A stretch of 51,416 nucleotides of DNA from Arenimonas sp. GDDSR-1. Its GTDB lineage: Bacteria; Pseudomonadota; Gammaproteobacteria; Xanthomonadales; Xanthomonadaceae. Below are positions 17,062 to 24,780 of this stretch, one piece after another; position 1 is the stretch's first letter; the number at the start of each line of letters is the position of its first letter. The notes beneath the pieces were generated by a model. It was not told where the DNA came from, searched no databases, and saw only the letters and a program-made list of their open reading frames with translations. The stretch spans positions 1 through 51,416 of the forward strand of contig NZ_JAPDUI010000020.1 of NCBI RefSeq assembly GCF_025980345.1, written 5' to 3'. Both the position numbers and the translations under genes were made by a program.

Positions 17062-17545
17062 CCTCTTCCCCGCTTTTCTCCTCGCTGCCCTGGTCGCCGG
17101 CACCGCCGATGCCAAAAGCAGCGACCGCAAGCAGCCGATGGACATCAGCGCCGACAACACCGATGCCCTGCTGACCGACACCAGCGAGTCGAGCATCAAC
17201 GGCAACGTGGTGATCAGTCAGGGTACGCTCAAGATCGAAGCCGACAAGGCGGTGATTTCGCGGGTCAAGGGCGATGTGGTGAAGGTGACCCTCAGCGGCG
17301 CGCCCACGCGCATGCAGCAGACCAACGACAACGGCGATGTGATGAAGGCTTCGGCCAAGCAGATTGTGTACCTGATCAGCGGCGAACAGATCCAGCTCAG
17401 CGGCGGCGTCATCATCGACCAGGCCCGCGGCAGCATGCGCGGCGAGTCGATCCGTTACGATCTCAAGACCGGACGCCTGACCGGCGGCGGCAACGGCGGG
17501 CGCGTGCAGATGCGCCTGAATCCCGCCGGCGGGGCCGGCAACTGA
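17048..17545 (+). CDS. lptA: LPS transport periplasmic bridge protein LptA
   Basis: 165 residues with a signal peptide ([17 protein letters not shown], cleavage near residue 22). The mature protein is an OstA-like repeat beta-jellyroll that polymerises into the periplasmic LPS bridge between LptC and LptD. Conserved pieces are QPMDISADN and [18 protein letters not shown]. The C-terminus is Gly/Asn-rich. Its last base is the first base of the lptB ATG. Confidence 0.92.
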
Positions 17546-18264
17546 TGCTCAGCGCACGCGGACTGAAGAAGTCCTACAAACAACGGGCGGTCGTGCATGA
17601 TTTCGGGCTCGACCTGAAGCCGGGCGAAGTGGTCGGTCTGCTCGGCCCGAACGGCGCCGGCAAAACCACCTGCTTCTACATGATCGTCGGCCTGGTCGCC
17701 GCGGATGCCGGCCGCATCGAACTCGACGGCCGCAACATTACCGGCTTGGCCATGCACGAACGTGCCCGCCTTGGTCTGGGCTATCTGCCCCAGGAAGCTT
17801 CGGTGTTCCGCAAGATGTCGGTGTCGGAAAACATCCTGTCGGTGCTCGAACTGCGCGCCGATCTGGATGCCGATGGTCGCGATGCGGCACTGAACGCCCT
17901 GCTCGATGAACTGCAGATCGGCCATGTCGCCACCCAGATGGGCGCCAGTCTTTCCGGCGGCGAACGCCGGCGTGTCGAAATCGCCCGCGCCCTGGCCGCC
18001 AATCCGCGCATGATCCTGCTCGACGAACCCTTCGCCGGCGTCGATCCGATTTCCGTGCTCGACATCCAGACCATCATCCGGCAGCTGAAACAGCGCGGCA
18101 TCGGCGTACTGATCACCGACCACAACGTGCGTGAAACGCTCGGCATCTGCGACCGCGCCTACATCCTGTTCGAAGGCACGGCCTTGGCCGAAGGCGAACC
18201 GGCCTATCTGATGGACCATCCCGACGTCCGCCGCGTCTATCTGGGCGAGCAGTTCAAGCTGTAA
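17545..18264 (+). CDS. lptB: LPS export ABC transporter ATP-binding protein LptB
   Basis: 239 residues with a complete ABC ATPase: Walker [12 protein letters not shown] (~36-46), Q-loop YLPQE, signature [15 protein letters not shown] (~136-150), Walker [13 protein letters not shown] (~156-167) and switch His in TDHN. It powers extraction of LPS from the inner membrane with LptFG (not in this window). It is followed after 7 bases by rpoN, the conserved order. Confidence 0.97.
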
Positions 18265-18271
18265 TCCGCGC

Positions 18272-19657
18272 ATGAAGGCCCGTGCGCAGCTCTCGCCCCG
18301 GCAAAGCACCAAGCTGACTCCGCAGCTGCAGCTCGCGCTCAAACTGCTGCAATGCACGCAGACCGAACTCGAGCAGGAAATCGAAAACGCCCTGGCCGCC
18401 AATCCGATGCTGGAACGCGTCGAGGCCGACACCGAGACCACGGCACTGAATGATGCACCGGCCGAGTTTGCCGGAGAAGGCCCCGACGTTGAAGACGTAC
18501 ACGCGGAGACGGATTTCCCGCATACCGCGGCCCCGGAAGCGGAAGAATCGCTCTGGGACGCCCTGCCCGAACCGAAGACCCTGCGCAGCCATCTCGGCGA
18601 GCAGTTGCAGCTGAGCGCCCTGAGCCGACGCGACTTGGCCATCGGCGAAGCCCTGATCGACAGCCTTGATGAGGACGGTTACTGCCAGGCCGGCGCGGAA
18701 GATCTGCGCACCGCCAGCGCACTGGTACCGCCGGCCAATGATGCCGAAATCGAAGCGGTACGCCATCTGATCCAACGCTTCGACCCGGTCGGCGTCGCCT
18801 CGCGCTCGTTGTCCGAATGCCTGCAGGTGCAGCTGACGCAGATTGCCGCGGATCCGGATCTGCTGACGCTCGCCACCGACATCGCCATGCGCCATCTGGA
18901 TGTTCTGGCCAGAGGCGGCGCGGCCGCGGTGGCCAAGGCCGGCGGCTTCGATCCGCTGCGTACCGCCGAAGCCGTGGCCCTGCTGAAAACCCTGGATCCC
19001 AAACCCGGTGCCCTGTTCCAGCATTCGCGCACCGAGTACGTCGAGCCCGACTTTGCCATCGTGGCCCAACGCAACGGCTGGCAGGTACACAGCCTGCGCG
19101 ATGCCGGCCAGCATCTGCGCCTGAATGCCTATTACCTCAAGCTGACCCGCAACAGCCGGGGCGCCGATGCCGCCCATCTGGCCCAGTATCTGCAGGAAGC
19201 GCGCTGGCTGATTGCCGGCATTGCCTCCCGCCGCGACACCCTGCTGAAAGTGGTGAAGGCGGTGGTCCGCAAACAGACGCCGTTTCTGGATTCCGGGCCC
19301 GCGGCGCTGCAGGCCATGAGCATGCGCGAAATCGCCGAAAGCATCGGCTTGCATGAATCGACGGTATCCCGGGCCTGCAGCGGCAAATGGCTGGCCACGC
19401 CGCACGGCATGCTCGAATTGGGCAGTCTGTTCGGCTCCGGCATCACCGATGATTCGGGAACCGTTCAGGCAGCGGGTGCCGTACAGACCCAGATCGCCGC
19501 CCTGATTGCGGCCGAAACCGCCGGCAAGCCGCTCTCGGATGCCAAGCTCGAACAGCTGTTGACCGACCGCGGCCTTCCGGTGGCGCGCCGGACCATTGCC
19601 AAGTACCGGGAAGCCCTCGGCATACCGCCTTCACATCTCCGGAAAAAACCGCAGTAA
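18272..19657 (+). CDS. rpoN: RNA polymerase sigma-54 factor
   Basis: 461 residues. Region I (~1-50) is Gln/Leu-rich (KLTPQLQLALKLLQCTQTELEQEIE), as needed for activator response, and an acidic region II follows (~55-100). The core-binding domain precedes the -12 recognition HTH (MREIAESIGLHESTVSRACSG, ~350-370) and the RpoN box ARRTIAKYRE near the C-terminus. Sigma-54 requires AAA+ enhancer-binding proteins, none of which lie in this window. It is co-oriented with the lpt genes and hpf. Confidence 0.96.
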   Translation: MKARAQLSPRQSTKLTPQLQLALKLLQCTQTELEQEIENALAANPMLERVEADTETTALNDAPAEFAGEGPDVEDVHAETDFPHTAAPEAEESLWDALPEPKTLRSHLGEQLQLSALSRRDLAIGEALIDSLDEDGYCQAGAEDLRTASALVPPANDAEIEAVRHLIQRFDPVGVASRSLSECLQVQLTQIAADPDLLTLATDIAMRHLDVLARGGAAAVAKAGGFDPLRTAEAVALLKTLDPKPGALFQHSRTEYVEPDFAIVAQRNGWQVHSLRDAGQHLRLNAYYLKLTRNSRGADAAHLAQYLQEARWLIAGIASRRDTLLKVVKAVVRKQTPFLDSGPAALQAMSMREIAESIGLHESTVSRACSGKWLATPHGMLELGSLFGSGITDDSGTVQAAGAVQTQIAALIAAETAGKPLSDAKLEQLLTDRGLPVARRTIAKYREALGIPPSHLRKKPQ

Positions 19658-19733: not shown

Positions 19734-20060
19734 ATGCAACTGCACATCACCGGACACCAGGTCGACGTCACCCCCGCCATCCGCAGCTACGCGGAAGAAA
19801 AAATGGCCCGCATCGGCAAACACTTCGACCATCATCTCGACATCAAGATGATCCTGTCCGTGGACAAGCTCGAGCAGAAAGCCGAAGCCACGCTGCATAC
19901 GCCCGGCAAGAATCACTTCGCTTTCGCCACCGCGCCCGACATGTACGCCGCCATCGATCTGCTGGCCGACAAACTGGACCGGATGGTGGTCAAGAACAAG
20001 GAAAAAATGAAGGACCATCACCGCGGCGAAAGCGCGGCAAAGATGGAAAAATTTGGCTAG
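19734..20060 (+). CDS. hpf: Short-form ribosome hibernation promoting factor
   Basis: 108 residues, the short HPF/YfiA form without the long-form C-terminal dimerisation domain. The family pattern is visible as MQLHITGHQVDVTPAIRSYA at the N-terminus and APDMYAAIDLLADKLDR (~75-91). It binds the 30S A/P sites and promotes 100S ribosome dimers in stationary phase. It follows rpoN after 76 bases; that gap has no strong promoter that I can defend, so read-through from rpoN is likely. In many relatives ptsN comes next; here hprK follows instead. Confidence 0.93.
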   Translation: MQLHITGHQVDVTPAIRSYAEEKMARIGKHFDHHLDIKMILSVDKLEQKAEATLHTPGKNHFAFATAPDMYAAIDLLADKLDRMVVKNKEKMKDHHRGESAAKMEKFG

Positions 20061-20090
20061 AATGAAGGCAGTTTCCCTTATCGGCTGCCC

Positions 20091-21044
20091 ATGAACACCA
20101 GCATCAGCGCCCGCGAGCTGTTCGACCAGTTGCAGCAGACGCTCGCGTTGCGCTGGCTGGCCGGCAAGTCGGGCAAGGATGTCCGCACCGACCGCAATGA
20201 AGTCACTTCCAAACGGCCCTCATTGGCCGGCTATCTGAATGTCATCCATCCCAACAAAGTGCAGATCCTCGGCCTGGCCGAACTGGCCTGGCTCGATCGG
20301 CTGGATGCGCGCCTGCGCTGGGAGAACATCAGCCGGATCATCGAACAGAACCCACTGGCACTGGTCATCAGCCAGAGCCAGCCCTGCCCGGCCGATCTGC
20401 AGCAGGCCTGCGAAGACGCGCAGGTCGCGCTGTGGGTGTCGGACCGGCGCGGTTTCGAATGCCTGAACCTGCTCCAGCATTTCCTGTCGGTGCGCCTTGC
20501 ACCGCAGACCTCGCTGCACGGCGTGTTCATGGAAATCTTCTCGTTCGGCGTGCTGATCACCGGCGAAGCCGGTGCCGGCAAGAGCGAGCTGGCACTGGAA
20601 CTGATCAGCCGCGGCCACCGCCTGGTGGCCGATGACGCGCCCGAATTCACCCAGATCACGCCCAGCATCCTCGAAGGCAGCTGCCCGCCGCTGCTGCAGG
20701 ACATGATGGAAGTGCGCGGCCTGGGCATCATGAACATCCGCCAGATGTTCGGCGACACCTCGGTGAAGAGCAGCAAATACCTGAAACTCATCATCAACCT
20801 GCTGCACTTCCGGCCCGAACACAACAACGCTGATTTCCGTCTGACCGGCACCGCTTCGACGCAGCGCGTGCTCGACATGGATATTCCGGTGTTCAACCTG
20901 CCGGTAGCGCCCGGCCGCAATCTGGCGGTACTGACCGAAGTGGCGGTGCGTCTGCAGATGCTGCGCCAGCAGGGCAAGGACCCGGCCAACGATTTCATGG
21001 CGCGTCACCAGCAGCTGCTCGACAACACGGATGTATCCTCATGA
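20091..21044 (+). CDS. hprK: HPr kinase/phosphorylase
   Basis: 317 residues. The N-terminal HPrK_N domain (~1-130) is followed by the catalytic domain with SLHGVFMEI (His ~143), Walker A GEAGAGKSE (~158-166), RLVADD (~177-182) and the HprK signature EVRGLGIMNI (~207-216). The C-terminal LPVAPGRNLAVL motif is conserved. All residues expected for kinase and phosphorolysis activity appear present. It phosphorylates a serine on HPr; an HPr gene with that serine lies two genes downstream. It overlaps rapZ by 4 bases (ATGA). Confidence 0.95.
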   Translation: MNTSISARELFDQLQQTLALRWLAGKSGKDVRTDRNEVTSKRPSLAGYLNVIHPNKVQILGLAELAWLDRLDARLRWENISRIIEQNPLALVISQSQPCPADLQQACEDAQVALWVSDRRGFECLNLLQHFLSVRLAPQTSLHGVFMEIFSFGVLITGEAGAGKSELALELISRGHRLVADDAPEFTQITPSILEGSCPPLLQDMMEVRGLGIMNIRQMFGDTSVKSSKYLKLIINLLHFRPEHNNADFRLTGTASTQRVLDMDIPVFNLPVAPGRNLAVLTEVAVRLQMLRQQGKDPANDFMARHQQLLDNTDVSS

Positions 21045-21913
21045 GCGGCATGCCGTCCAGCCTGGTCATCGTCAGCGGTCTGTCGGGCTCCGGCAAGAGC
21101 GTGGCGCTGCGTACGCTGGAAGATCTCGGGTTCTACTGCGTCGACAATCTGCCGGCCAACCTGCTGCCGGACTTGGTGCAGAACATGGCCAGCGACGACC
21201 TGCGCCGGCATCGGGTCGCGGTCGGCATCGATGTCCGCAACCTGACCAACGACCTGCGCCTGATCGGCGACCTGCTGACCCGGGTCAAGGCCCAGGGCTT
21301 CGATACCAAGCTGGTGTTCTTCGACACCGACGATGCGGTGCTGATCAAACGGTTTTCCGAAACCCGCCGCAAACATCCGCTGTCCATGCAGGGCTTGCCG
21401 CTGTCCGACGCCATCGCCGAAGAGCGCCGGCAATTGCAGCCGCTGGTGGCGCTGGCCGATCTGGTGGTCGATACCACGGAACTGAATGTGCACCAGCTGC
21501 GCAAACGCGTGCTCGATGAAGTACAGGGCCATGCCCGCAGCAGCATTTCGATCCTGTTCGAGTCCTTCGCCTACAAACGCGGGGTGCCGCCGGACGCCGA
21601 TTTCGTGTTCGATACGCGCTGCCTGCCGAATCCGCACTGGGTACCCGAGCTCCGACCGCTGTCCGGCAAGGATGCGGCGGTGAAAGCCTATTTCGAGGCC
21701 GACCCGCAGGTCGGTACCTATCTGCGGCAGATCACCGGATTCATCGACACCTGGCTTCCCCGCTTCGAGGCCGAGACCCGCAGCTACCTGACGGTGGCTT
21801 TCGGCTGTACCGGCGGCAAGCACCGCTCGGTCTATCTGGCCGAAAGCCTGGCCCGGCACTGCAGTGCCGGCGGGCATGATAAGGTAATGGTGTACCACAG
21901 GGAATTGGAGTGA
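21041..21913 (+). CDS. rapZ: RNase adapter / nucleotide-binding protein RapZ
   Basis: 290 residues. The N-terminal Walker A is SGLSGSGKS (~11-19), with the family mark DLGFYCVDNLP. The C-terminal domain carries FGCTGGKHRSVYLAE (~250-264), the metabolite-sensing region of RapZ. In E. coli RapZ guides RNase E to GlmZ sRNA and senses glucosamine-6-phosphate, tuning amino-sugar and so envelope supply; whether that holds in this lineage is unknown. The gene sits between hprK and HPr with overlapping junctions. Confidence 0.95.
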   Translation: MSGMPSSLVIVSGLSGSGKSVALRTLEDLGFYCVDNLPANLLPDLVQNMASDDLRRHRVAVGIDVRNLTNDLRLIGDLLTRVKAQGFDTKLVFFDTDDAVLIKRFSETRRKHPLSMQGLPLSDAIAEERRQLQPLVALADLVVDTTELNVHQLRKRVLDEVQGHARSSISILFESFAYKRGVPPDADFVFDTRCLPNPHWVPELRPLSGKDAAVKAYFEADPQVGTYLRQITGFIDTWLPRFEAETRSYLTVAFGCTGGKHRSVYLAESLARHCSAGGHDKVMVYHRELE

Positions 21914-21915
21914 CC

Positions 21916-22179
21916 ATGGCGGAACGTAAACTCCTGGTAAGCGCGGACAACGGACTGCATGCGCAGGCGTCTGCGAAAGTCGTGCAGATCCTCAGCCAGT
22001 TCGGCTGCAACGTCAGCTTCACGCTCGGCAGCCGCGAAGTGAATGCCAAGAGCATCATGGGCGTGATGCTGCTGGCGGCCGGACCGGGCCGCGAAATCAC
22101 CGCGCGTGCCGATGGCGAAGATGCCGATAAGGCGCTGGACGCACTGGAAGCCCTGTTTCTGCGGCGCTTCGAAGATTAA
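21916..22179 (+). CDS. HPr-like phosphocarrier with Arg17 replaced by Gln
   Basis: 87 residues from ATG 21916, five bases after a GGAG; a GTG at 21910 overlapping the rapZ stop is the alternative. The alignment to HPr is gap-free at the key sites. The active-site segment reads GLHAQASAK instead of the usual GLHARPA, so His15 is kept while Arg17 is Gln (codon CAG) and Pro18 is Ala. The regulatory segment NAKSIMGVM retains Ser46, the HprK target. Arg17 normally stabilises phospho-His and contacts EI and EIIA, so PEP-dependent phosphotransfer may be weak. hprK lies two genes upstream, but no ptsI, ptsN or EIIA-Man gene is adjacent. A role mainly as a Ser-phosphorylated regulator, as in Bacillus Crh, is my inference. 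Confidence 0.9.
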   Translation: MAERKLLVSADNGLHAQASAKVVQILSQFGCNVSFTLGSREVNAKSIMGVMLLAAGPGREITARADGEDADKALDALEALFLRRFED

Positions 22180-22191
22180 GCGCTTTCCGTC

Positions 22192-22220
22192 TTTTCACCG
22201 CCGCCGATTGCGCGGATAAT
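22192..22220 (+). promoter_or_regulatory. Predicted sigma-70 promoter for mgtE
   Basis: TTTTCA (22192-22197) and GATAAT (22215-22220) are 17 bases apart. The expected start site (~22227) would give a leader of about 20 bases, which suggests mgtE can be transcribed apart from the rpoN-HPr genes. Confidence 0.45.
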
Positions 22221-22245
22221 ACCCGGATTACCGGGAGGGCACTGC

Positions 22246-23613
22246 ATGGTTGAACACGTCCGCCACACCAAGACGGCGCAGCAGTTGCGCCTGCTCTCCG
22301 ACGCGCTCGATTCGGGCCGTCTGGGACCGGTGCGGCGTCTGGTCAACATCCTGTCGCCGGCCGAAATCGGCAACCTGCTGGAATCCCTGCCCGCCGCCAA
22401 ACGCAACATCGTCTGGGGTCTGGTCGATCCGGAAGATGACGGCGAAGTGCTGGTGCATGTCGGCGAGGATGTGCGCGAAAGTCTGATTGCGGAAATGGAC
22501 CAGGACGAAATCATCGCGGCCGTGGAAGATCTCGACCTCGACGATCTGGCCGACCTGATCGACGATCTGCCGGATACGGTCATCGAAGAAGTGCTCAAGT
22601 CGATGGACCGCGACCACCGTGAACGCCTCGAGCAGGCCCTGTCCTATCCCGAGGACTCGGCCGGCCGACTGATGAACACCGACGTCATCACCGTACGCGC
22701 CGACGTCAACATCGATGTGGTGCTGCGCTATCTTCGCCTGCGCGGCGAAATGCCGGAACACACCGACTACCTGTATGTCGTCTCGCGCCGCAACCAGTAC
22801 ATGGGCCGGATCTCGGTCAGCGACCTGCTGACCAAGGACCCGTCGACCGCGATCAACGAACTGATCGACGACGAACAGCCGGGCATCCCGCTGGAAACGC
22901 CGGACAACGAAGTGGCCACGCAGTTCTCCGACCATGACTGGATCTCGGCGCCGGTAGTGGATGCCAACAACATCCTGCTCGGCCGCATCACCATTGATGA
23001 CGTAGTCGATATCATCCGCGGCCAGGCCGAGCATCAGGCCCTGAGCGCGGTCGGCCTGGACGAGGACGAAGATCTGTTCAGCCCGGTTCCGCGTGCCGCC
23101 AAACGCCGGGCGCTGTGGCTGGGCATCAATCTGGCCACCGCCTTTCTCGCCTCCTGGGTCATCGGCCAGTTCGAAGGCACCCTGCAGAAAATCGTACCGC
23201 TCGCCATCCTGATGCCGATCGTGGCCAGCATGGGCGGCGTGGCCGCCACCCAGACCCTGACCCTGATGGTGCGCGGCATCGCGCTCGGCCAGGTCGGCCT
23301 GGGCAATCTGAAAGCCCTGTTCAACAAGGAAACCCTGGTCGGCTTCATCAACGGCATCGTCTGGGCCCTGGTGGTCGGCGTTATTTCGGCATTGTGGTTC
23401 GAGCCGAAAATCGGCATGGTGATTGCCGCCGCCATGCTGATCAATCTGGTCGTCGCTGCACTGGCCGGCGTGGCCGTGCCTTTGCTGCTCAAACGCATGG
23501 ATATCGATCCGGCACTGGCTGGCGGCGTGGTGGTGACCACCGTCACCGATGTGATGGGCTTCCTGGCCTTCCTCGGCCTGGGCACCTGGATCCTGGTCGG
23601 CAGCCCGGCTTAA
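22246..23613 (+). CDS. mgtE: Magnesium transporter MgtE
   Basis: 455 residues. The acidic N domain (~15-130) contains the repeated DLDLDDLADLIDDLPD pattern. Two CBS domains (~135-260) are followed by five predicted membrane helices (~285-455). MgtE is a Mg2+-gated channel whose N and CBS domains close the pore when cytosolic Mg2+ is high. The ATG at 22246 is preceded by GGGAGGG. Placement directly after the HPr gene, where ptsI-mgtE is expected in Xanthomonads, marks the spot where ptsI appears to be missing. Confidence 0.95.
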   Translation: MVEHVRHTKTAQQLRLLSDALDSGRLGPVRRLVNILSPAEIGNLLESLPAAKRNIVWGLVDPEDDGEVLVHVGEDVRESLIAEMDQDEIIAAVEDLDLDDLADLIDDLPDTVIEEVLKSMDRDHRERLEQALSYPEDSAGRLMNTDVITVRADVNIDVVLRYLRLRGEMPEHTDYLYVVSRRNQYMGRISVSDLLTKDPSTAINELIDDEQPGIPLETPDNEVATQFSDHDWISAPVVDANNILLGRITIDDVVDIIRGQAEHQALSAVGLDEDEDLFSPVPRAAKRRALWLGINLATAFLASWVIGQFEGTLQKIVPLAILMPIVASMGGVAATQTLTLMVRGIALGQVGLGNLKALFNKETLVGFINGIVWALVVGVISALWFEPKIGMVIAAAMLINLVVAALAGVAVPLLLKRMDIDPALAGGVVVTTVTDVMGFLAFLGLGTWILVGSPA

Positions 23614-24780
23614 ATGAGCACCGCGGCCCGCGCACCGGCACAGATTCCCCTGGTTCTTGCCGCACTGACGGTCATGGCCATCATGGCCATGCTAATCAGC
23701 GGGCAGAATGCCGAAGCACCGCTGCTGGCCCTGTTTCTGGTCGGCAGCCTGCTCGGCATCGCCCTGTACCACTCCGTATTCGGATTCACCGCCGCATTCC
23801 GACTGCTTCTGGCCGAACAGCGCAGCGCGGGTTTCCGTGCCCAGATGGTGATGCTGGGCAGCGCCTGCCTGCTGTTTTTTCCGGCACTCGCCGGCGGCAC
23901 CTTGTTCGGCCAGCCGGTGCAGGGTTTCGTGTCGCCGGCAGGTGTTTCGGTAGTCATCGGTTCGTTTCTGTTCGGCATCGGCATGCAACTCGGCGGCGGT
24001 TGCGCATCGGGGACCTTGTTTACCGTCGGCGGCGGCAGTACGCGCATGCTGGTCACGCTTTTGTTTTTCATCCTTGGCGCCATGCTGGGCCTGACCCATC
24101 TGGCCTGGTGGAAAACACTGCCGGCCATGGCACCCGCATCGATGATCGATATGCTGGGTTGGCCGGCCGCCCTGCTGCTCAATCTCGGCGTATTCGCCTT
24201 GGCGTATACCACTGCGGCGCGAATCGAACGCCGACGCCACGGCACGGTACAAAGCATCACCGATCAGGGCAGTGCATCCTGGCTGCGCGGACCCTGGCCG
24301 TTGCTGGCCGGCGCCGCGGCGTTGGCCGTACTCAACTTCGCCACGTTGGCACTGGCAGGGCGTCCTTGGGGCGTTACCTCGGCCTTCGCACTGTGGGGTG
24401 GTTCGGTTCTGCAGGGCTTCGGTGTGCCCGTGGGCAGCTGGTCCGGGTTCGATACGCCGGCCATGCAAACCGCACTGGCCGCCGGTCCCTTGGCCGACAT
24501 CACCTCGGTCATGGATTTCGGTATCGTGCTCGGTGCATTGCTGGCCTCGGGACTGGCCGGAAAATTCCTGCCGGTCTGGCGGATTCCGGCATCGCATCTG
24601 CTGGCCAGCGTTGTCGGTGGCCTGCTGCTCGGCTACGGCTCACGCATCGCTTACGGCTGCAACATCGGGGCGTTCTTCAGCGGCATCGCCTCCGGCAGTG
24701 TGCACGGCTGGGTCTGGATCGTGTTCGCATTGATCGGCAACCGCGCCGGCATCGCGTTGCGACCCATGTTCAAACTCTAG
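23614..24780 (+). CDS. YeeE/YedE-family membrane transporter (TsuA-like)
   Basis: 388 residues and largely hydrophobic, with about ten membrane segments arranged as two related halves. The sulfur-transport signature cysteines are present: GGGCASGTLF (Cys ~130) and YGCNIGAFFSG (Cys ~349). Characterised relatives take up thiosulfate through a cysteine relay and usually partner with a TusA-like protein (YeeD). No TusA-like gene is adjacent, so the substrate is uncertain. It starts directly after the mgtE stop. Confidence 0.85.
   Translation: MSTAARAPAQIPLVLAALTVMAIMAMLISGQNAEAPLLALFLVGSLLGIALYHSVFGFTAAFRLLLAEQRSAGFRAQMVMLGSACLLFFPALAGGTLFGQPVQGFVSPAGVSVVIGSFLFGIGMQLGGGCASGTLFTVGGGSTRMLVTLLFFILGAMLGLTHLAWWKTLPAMAPASMIDMLGWPAALLLNLGVFALAYTTAARIERRRHGTVQSITDQGSASWLRGPWPLLAGAAALAVLNFATLALAGRPWGVTSAFALWGGSVLQGFGVPVGSWSGFDTPAMQTALAAGPLADITSVMDFGIVLGALLASGLAGKFLPVWRIPASHLLASVVGGLLLGYGSRIAYGCNIGAFFSGIASGSVHGWVWIVFALIGNRAGIALRPMFKL

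Follow-up and report, generated by a model that had tools for sequence, protein, structure and literature searches.

One clade of the genus Arenimonas has probably lost the arm of its regulatory phosphotransferase system (PTS) that is driven by phosphoenolpyruvate (PEP), and its HPr appears to persist as a dedicated substrate of the HPr(Ser) kinase/phosphorylase HprK. The case was met in a stretch of 51,416 nt of Arenimonas sp. GDDSR-1 (contig NZ_JAPDUI010000020.1 of assembly GCF_025980345.1, forward strand; the window hereafter), where the genes lptB-rpoN-hpf-hprK-rapZ-HPr-mgtE follow one another, all on the + strand. The best reading, drawn from the constraint on HPr and HprK and from genetics in Xanthomonas, is that HPr probably survived as a serine switch controlled by HprK.

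Probable loss of the PEP-driven arm

Profile searches of the assembly that holds the window (G000; 2.04 Mb, 89 contigs, 91% complete) returned a single HPr (PF00381) and a single HprK. Neither of the partners of a PEP-dependent PTS relay was found in it: there was no N-terminal domain of Enzyme I (EI; PF05524, which we take to be the HPr-binding part of EI), and no acceptor of the PtsN type (PF00359) or of the mannose type (EIIA-Man; PF03610), the EIIA search being confined to these two families and not extended to EIIA-Glc (PF00358) or other EII families. The only match to PF02896 in this genome was rejected as a hidden EI, as it is a PEP synthase (1247 bits, cut-off 598). An earlier note on this DNA, made from its letters, had claimed that ptsI and the EIIA genes were lost. 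The genome search agrees with this for EI and the two EIIA families covered (EIIA-Glc was not among them), and a second canonical HPr, which could have overturned the claim, did not appear, the genome having one PF00381 match.

The locus itself is closed up. As the earlier note had seen, hpf runs straight into hprK and HPr straight into mgtE, and the junctions of 30 bp and 66 bp leave no room for ptsN at the first or ptsI at the second. The order that the earlier note had given for relatives (hpf, then ptsN-hprK-rapZ-EIIAMan-ptsH-ptsI-mgtE) was right in substance, as judged by tblastn in relatives and from PMC2405797. In many relatives the rapZ/HPr junction is the site of EIIA-Man (tblastn gene order).

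Across the genus, the PF05524 profile found EI in 15 of 27 genomes and not in the other 12. A. maotaiensis (G006), whose assembly is rated 100% complete, likewise has no match to PF05524, PF00359 or PF03610. We considered assembly gaps as the cause of the missing EI and rejected them, because 12 of the 27 genomes are without EI and A. maotaiensis is among them. It is thus very improbable that an EI is present in the window's genome and was overlooked, either in unassembled sequence or as a protein too divergent for the profile. The 91% completeness and the 89 contigs of that assembly would allow it; against it, no EI was found in seven EI-less relatives rated 97–100% complete (G001, G005, G006, G008, G009, which has 9% contamination, G017 and G042), the locus is closed up at the ptsN and ptsI sites of relatives, and the identical profile did find EI in the 15 EI-bearing genomes. 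Loss of the PEP-driven arm is well supported, in G000 and in independent relatives.

HPr was found in 10 of the 12 EI-less genomes. The two others are G014 (74% complete), which is also without HprK, and G016 (81% complete), whose contig stops just after hprK, so that HPr and HprK are both retained in 10/10 EI-less genomes with an assembled locus. No PtsN-type EIIA was found in the 11 EI-less genomes searched, and G042 was checked at the locus only. Short PtsN matches near hpf in EI-less loci were rejected, as they were confined to residues 1–89 of a stop-to-stop query, ahead of its EIIA part, and overlapped hpf. EIIA-Man was found in just two EI-less genomes, G008 and G009. The G008 protein keeps the His that we take to be the phospho-acceptor, and G009 has Tyr aligned with it. 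The G009 protein (L115 6168-6560) still matches PF03610 (38.9 bits) despite this Tyr.

Residues 15, 17 and 46 of HPr

The hprK, rapZ and HPr open reading frames (ORFs) are intact. The HPr ORF can be read from 21910 or from an ATG at 21916. The latter seems the better start, because it follows a GGAG and because a start codon stands at this position in 9/9 aligned EI-less HPrs (ATG in eight, and in G017 a Val codon that we read as a start). It gives exact numbering to His15, Gln17 and Ser46 in an HPr of 87 residues. With this start, what the earlier note had reported for the window's HPr was borne out, namely that His15 and Ser46 are intact and Arg17 is replaced by Gln. Its further point, that Ala in place of Pro18 is a deviation, does not hold: Ala18 is ordinary, with GLHARA in 76 and GLHAQA in 4 of the best 80 of 460 relatives.

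All ten EI-less Arenimonas HPrs have His15 and Ser46, and none has Arg17. Nine carry Gln at position 17 and one carries His (G009, the assembly with 9% contamination); the His17 codon of G009 is one base away from a Gln codon, and this genome is nested among relatives with Gln. By contrast, Arg17 is found in 15/15 EI-bearing Arenimonas. As a check on its reading, the earlier note had proposed aligning residue 17 across relatives, and the EI-bearing HPrs read in this way all have Arg: 27/27 in the EI-bearing part of the relatives sample, 76/76 at those of the best 80 loci of 460 relatives whose stretch also contains EI, and 58/58 from a wider sample with EI in every genome (tblastn). These make 161 HPrs if added, though the sets may overlap, and the last 58 were picked by hand, for the most part from the high-scoring end of the matches listed, and are thereby biased toward the consensus. 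Eight columns, residue 17 among them, separate nine EI-less from 14 EI-bearing Arenimonas HPrs; when all 27 EI-bearing HPrs are taken in, two columns remain fully distinct, residue 17 and residue 87 at the C-terminus. The window's HPr has the Pfam match and the His15 of PTS HPrs, and differs from them in not having Arg beside that His. Mutants of Arg17 are all reported to be impaired in phosphotransfer with EI (PMC5320558), and this residue ranks with those of HPr that make the most contacts to EI (PMC8509676).

The components of an HprK/HPr(Ser46) switch are present in the window, as HprK matches its profile and has its motifs, and Ser46 lies in a conserved HPr segment. The earlier note held that the HprK motifs are intact, and this extends to all 11 EI-less HprKs, in which RGHRLVADD, EVRGLG and the P-loop could each be recognized.

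A single loss, and constraint on what remains

A tree was built from five neighbouring proteins of 20 of the 27 genus genomes and seven outgroups (G011, G014, G015, G018, G019, G022 and G023 are not in it, and G010 was too short for a second tree). All 11 EI-less genomes included form one clade, with ultrafast bootstrap values of 98 (unrooted), 99 without HprK and 97 on the re-rooted tree. The loss of EI and the loss of Arg17 therefore count as a single event. The losses of EI, PtsN and Arg17 map to one stem, and the tree gives no order among them. As EIIA-Man is kept only in G008 and G009, the tree requires at least three later losses of it, if only losses are assumed.

Tree length is 1.57 substitutions per site in the EI-less clade, compared to 0.85 in the EI-bearing Arenimonas. 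The dN/dS of HPr was 0.10–0.20 in 10 EI-less pairs (0.03–0.33 in six EI-bearing pairs), and that of HprK was 0.01–0.23 (EI-bearing, 0.12–0.27); these are pairwise values from tblastn-aligned segments, the pairs are non-independent and some dS values are near or above 1. Residues 40–58 of HPr, around Ser46, are invariant at 19/19 positions in nine EI-less HPrs and at 18/19 in 14 EI-bearing Arenimonas.

Could HPr and HprK be functionless remnants of the lost PTS that are themselves disappearing? EI and PtsN have already gone, EIIA-Man was lost repeatedly, five of the EI-less genomes are small (G000, G001, G006, G007 and G024; 1.7–2.2 Mb), and HPr is looser outside residues 40–58 than in EI-bearing Arenimonas, though the clade is also deeper. 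We nevertheless regard such decay as improbable, in view of the retention of both proteins in 10/10 assembled loci across a tree length of 1.57, the low dN/dS of HPr in its ten non-independent pairs, and a Ser46 segment that is fully invariant in nine HPrs.

RpoN, from the same gene row, diverges far faster than its neighbours (18272-19657; L112, L113). Its identity between G000 and G006 is 54%, compared to 91% for LptB and 87% for HprK, and its pairwise dN/dS reaches 0.49 in the EI-less clade. The rpoN of G024 (L117 7871-9250) was matched by tblastn in two pieces whose starts are mutually out of frame, perhaps through a frameshift or an assembly error.

A probable serine switch without Enzyme I

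Xanthomonas is a related bacterium, of the same order, and its gene set is also found in EI-bearing Arenimonas. In Xanthomonas campestris, deletion of ptsH abolishes the hprK phenotype, and double mutants of hprK with ptsI or with either ptsN resemble the hprK mutant (the latter as data not shown in that paper). In an hprK-ptsH mutant, H15A HPr acts like the wild type and S46A HPr does not. HprK thus acts through PtsH in Xanthomonas, and the phenotypes tested depend on Ser46 but not on PtsI or His15 (all PMC6916182). Unlike the Arenimonas clade, Xanthomonas keeps EI and both EIIAs, and its loci among the best 80 relatives have Arg17 and EI beside HPr; EI and EIIAs of the PtsN and mannose types were not found in G000, where residue 17 is Gln. 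From this EI- and His15-independent pathway we infer that the HprK–HPr(Ser46) branch is what survived in the clade.

The sequence of events may have been as follows. Enzyme I and EIIA-Ntr would have been lost in one Arenimonas clade, and EIIA-Man later and repeatedly. Without EI, Arg17 would no longer be required for phosphotransfer and would be free to change. HprK would add or remove the Ser46 phosphate in step with the energy and metabolite state of the cell, and the two forms of HPr would differ in binding one or more targets. As the genetics in Xanthomonas suggests, the active form may be the one without phosphate, with HprK restraining it. RapZ, whose gene is packed closely with those of HprK and HPr, is one candidate target. 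A stricter version holds that the only HPr of the lineage is now a pure serine-phosphorylation switch, with its His15 relay gone, Arg17 replaced on the branch of EI loss, and the HprK–HPr pair coupled to RapZ as a free-standing energy sensor; for this version we judge the chances to be about even.

Several observations weigh against a serine switch of this kind. The strongest against its pure form is the retention of His15 in 10/10 EI-less HPrs, although the donor known for it and most of its acceptors have disappeared, as this residue is not required of a protein freed from His phosphorylation. Outside residues 40–58, HPr is looser in the EI-less than in the EI-bearing Arenimonas, although the EI-less clade is also deeper: invariant positions number 1/12 compared to 8/12 for residues 1–12, 10/13 compared to 12/13 for residues 13–25, 2/14 compared to 6/14 for residues 26–39, and 4/29 compared to 10/29 for residues 59–87. 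The link between EI and Arg17 is one co-occurrence, as the searches turned up no other independent HPr without EI. The S46A test in Xanthomonas was made in a strain lacking HprK, and so bears on the importance of residue 46 and not on that of its phosphorylation. Finally, we met no biochemistry on any Arenimonas HPr or HprK in the openly available literature.

Retained His15 may serve HprK or target recognition, or there may be an unknown donor. In the latter case His15 would still be phosphorylated, and HPr would remain a phosphocarrier with an altered chemistry at residue 17. The presence of His15 in 10/10 EI-less HPrs would fit, and the genome encodes a PEP synthase, which has a PEP-binding domain in common with EI. 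However, G000 and its 11 EI-less genus mates gave no PF05524 match, and the 11 of them searched for a PtsN-type acceptor gave none. EIIA-Man is either missing or has Tyr for the putative active His in G009, although G008 retains the His. Mutation of Arg17 is itself reported to impair transfer from EI to HPr (PMC5320558), and His15 could be explained by a part in how HprK or a target recognizes HPr. We therefore consider a persisting phosphocarrier role unlikely, only slightly less so than decay of the whole pair.

A dedicated partnership of HPr with RapZ, in which the coupled hprK-rapZ-ptsH genes would tie energy sensing by HprK to amino-sugar or envelope supply, is a somewhat less unlikely alternative, but still a doubtful one. 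The hprK stop overlaps the rapZ start by four bases and HPr begins two bases past the rapZ stop; there is also a parallel in Bacillus, whose crh is in an operon with yvcJ, the homologue of rapZ (PMC6171935). Of the possible targets named in the earlier note (RapZ, RpoN or envelope functions), RapZ alone has a point in its favour, this close coupling of hprK-rapZ-ptsH. Yet the neighbourhood is inherited, as rapZ is near ptsH in EI-bearing relatives too, RapZ diverges faster than HprK (G000/G006 identity of 74% compared to 87%), and we met with no evidence of an interaction.

Comparison with known systems

The serine switch that we favour for Arenimonas HPr resembles Crh of Bacillus and its relatives, an HPr-like substrate of the Ser46 kinase that is without the catalytic His15 (PMC9631020), and PDB chains of Crh match the window's HPr (E 1.6e-11). 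As noted above, crh shares its operon with a rapZ homologue. However, Crh accompanies a working HPr and has lost His15, whereas the changed protein is the only HPr found in G000, with no complete HPr as a paralogue beside it, and the EI-less HPrs keep His15 (10/10) having lost Arg17. The earlier note's suggestion of convergence with Crh accordingly stands for how the protein would work, and falls for the detail (Crh lost His15, PMC9631020; Arenimonas HPr kept it and lost Arg17).

Occurrence of ptsH without ptsI has been reported for Bartonella and Ureaplasma urealyticum (PMC2405797), which are in this respect like the Arenimonas clade. The labels bhenafhe and bquiafhe in that paper look like an EIIA-HPr-EI fusion, and if we read them correctly Bartonella may, unlike Arenimonas, have EI in fused form. 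Its text, as far as seen, is silent on Arg17. The PTS-Ntr (EI-Ntr, NPr and EIIA-Ntr) is similar as a regulatory, non-transport PTS linked to rpoN, and different in that searches of G000 gave no N-terminal domain of EI and no EIIA of the PtsN type.

Thus, ptsH without ptsI (PMC2405797) and a serine-only protein, Crh (PMC9631020), are already known. Among the papers listed in the literature searched, to which most subscription journals do not belong, there was no account of Arenimonas HPr or of an HPr losing Arg17 together with EI. What HprK and HPr do in Gram-negative bacteria is poorly understood, since a single small protein is phosphorylated both at the expense of PEP and at that of ATP. The genus Arenimonas provides a natural experiment: some of its species have the complete set, others (G008, G009) have EIIA-Man beside HPr and HprK, and a third group has only HPr and HprK. 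Whatever this third group still regulates would have to stem from its serine branch. That EI and Arg17 were lost together, even if only once, fits with Arg17 being kept for phosphotransfer and not for HprK, and the retention of His15 raises the question of what else this residue does. If the serine switch is real, the clade would show, by a dissection made in nature, that selection can act on the serine branch of HPr by itself in Proteobacteria.

Distribution beyond Arenimonas

HPr without EI is rare. Among 397 genomes of the order, 360 have HPr and 358 have EI, and the HPr-only exceptions are G000 and G008, both Arenimonas. Among 396 genomes of the phylum, HPr and EI were each found in 353, with G000 having HPr only and G447 only a weak EI match. 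The HPr and EI listings of both samples were compared by eye, and the counts agree; no other genus in the 397 and 396 genomes had HPr without EI. HPr was also found in 189 of 194 genomes of one family (of a class that we infer to be alphaproteobacterial). A search for EI that took in 19 genomes only, and not the rest of this family sample, found none in Arenimonas G042 and G016; the 13 others with HPr all have EI, and the four without HPr are also without EI. A second independent lineage with HPr and no EI was not found in the order, phylum or 19-genome searches.

The reverse course is seen in two genomes from other families of the order (G029 and G031): neither HPr nor EI was found, PtsN and RapZ are adjacent, and the stretches concerned (L125 5612-7500; L126 6301-7600) have no hprK match.

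Gene row and minor observations

The features of the locus are collected in Table 1. The ORF at 17545-18264 is presumably lptB; the other genes of the locus were named by curated profiles. A scan for promoters and terminators gave one site of each kind, about or below the shuffle level.

Table 1. Positions of genes, motifs, codons and junctions in the window.
Feature	Position	Strand	Evidence or remark
lptB	17545..18264	+	
rpoN (sigma-54), upstream in locus	18272..19657	+	NCBIfam TIGR02395, 382.8 bits, cut-off 277
hpf, ribosome hibernation factor	19734..20060	+	TIGR00741, 94.7 bits, cut-off 40.9
hpf/hprK junction, 30 bp; site of ptsN (EIIA-Ntr) in EI-bearing relatives	20061..20090	.	tblastn gene order
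hprK, full-length HPr(Ser) kinase/phosphorylase	20091..21044	+	TIGR00679, 321 bits, cut-off 240; PDB 1ko7, E 1.1e-49
HprK P-loop GEAGAGKS	20562..20585	+	P-loop of similar form, with small changes, in 11/11 EI-less HprKs
HprK segment RGHRLVADD	20610..20636	+	unchanged in 11/11 EI-less HprKs
HprK signature segment EVRGLG	20709..20726	+	unchanged in 11/11 EI-less HprKs
rapZ	21041..21913	+	NF003828, 354.9 bits, cut-off 244; ATGA overlap with hprK stop
GGAG, likely ribosome-binding site of HPr	21907..21910	+	sequence
ptsH (HPr), 87 aa	21916..22179	+	PF00381, 87 bits, cut-off 23; TIGR01003, 87.4 bits, cut-off 47.9
His15 codon CAT	21958..21960	+	sequence, alignment
Residue 17 codon CAG (Gln)	21964..21966	+	Arg in EI-bearing relatives
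Ser46 codon AGC	22051..22053	+	sequence, alignment
HPr/mgtE junction, 66 bp; ptsI sits here in several EI-bearing relatives	22180..22245	.	tblastn gene order
mgtE, magnesium transporter	22246..23613	+	TIGR00400, 288.7 bits, cut-off 232.75

The ORF after mgtE (23614-24780) resembles membrane proteins of the YedE/TsuA type, with 134 bits, below the curated cut-off of 350. A record titled Bacillus subtilis SK7B5 (L173; JAHREJ010000005.1) holds an HPr-EI locus of a Stenotrophomonas-like kind, and is probably mislabelled or mixed. In several EI-bearing Arenimonas (L121, L122, L124; L120), the EIIA-Man-HPr-EI block is opposite in orientation to rpoN-hpf-ptsN-hprK-rapZ.

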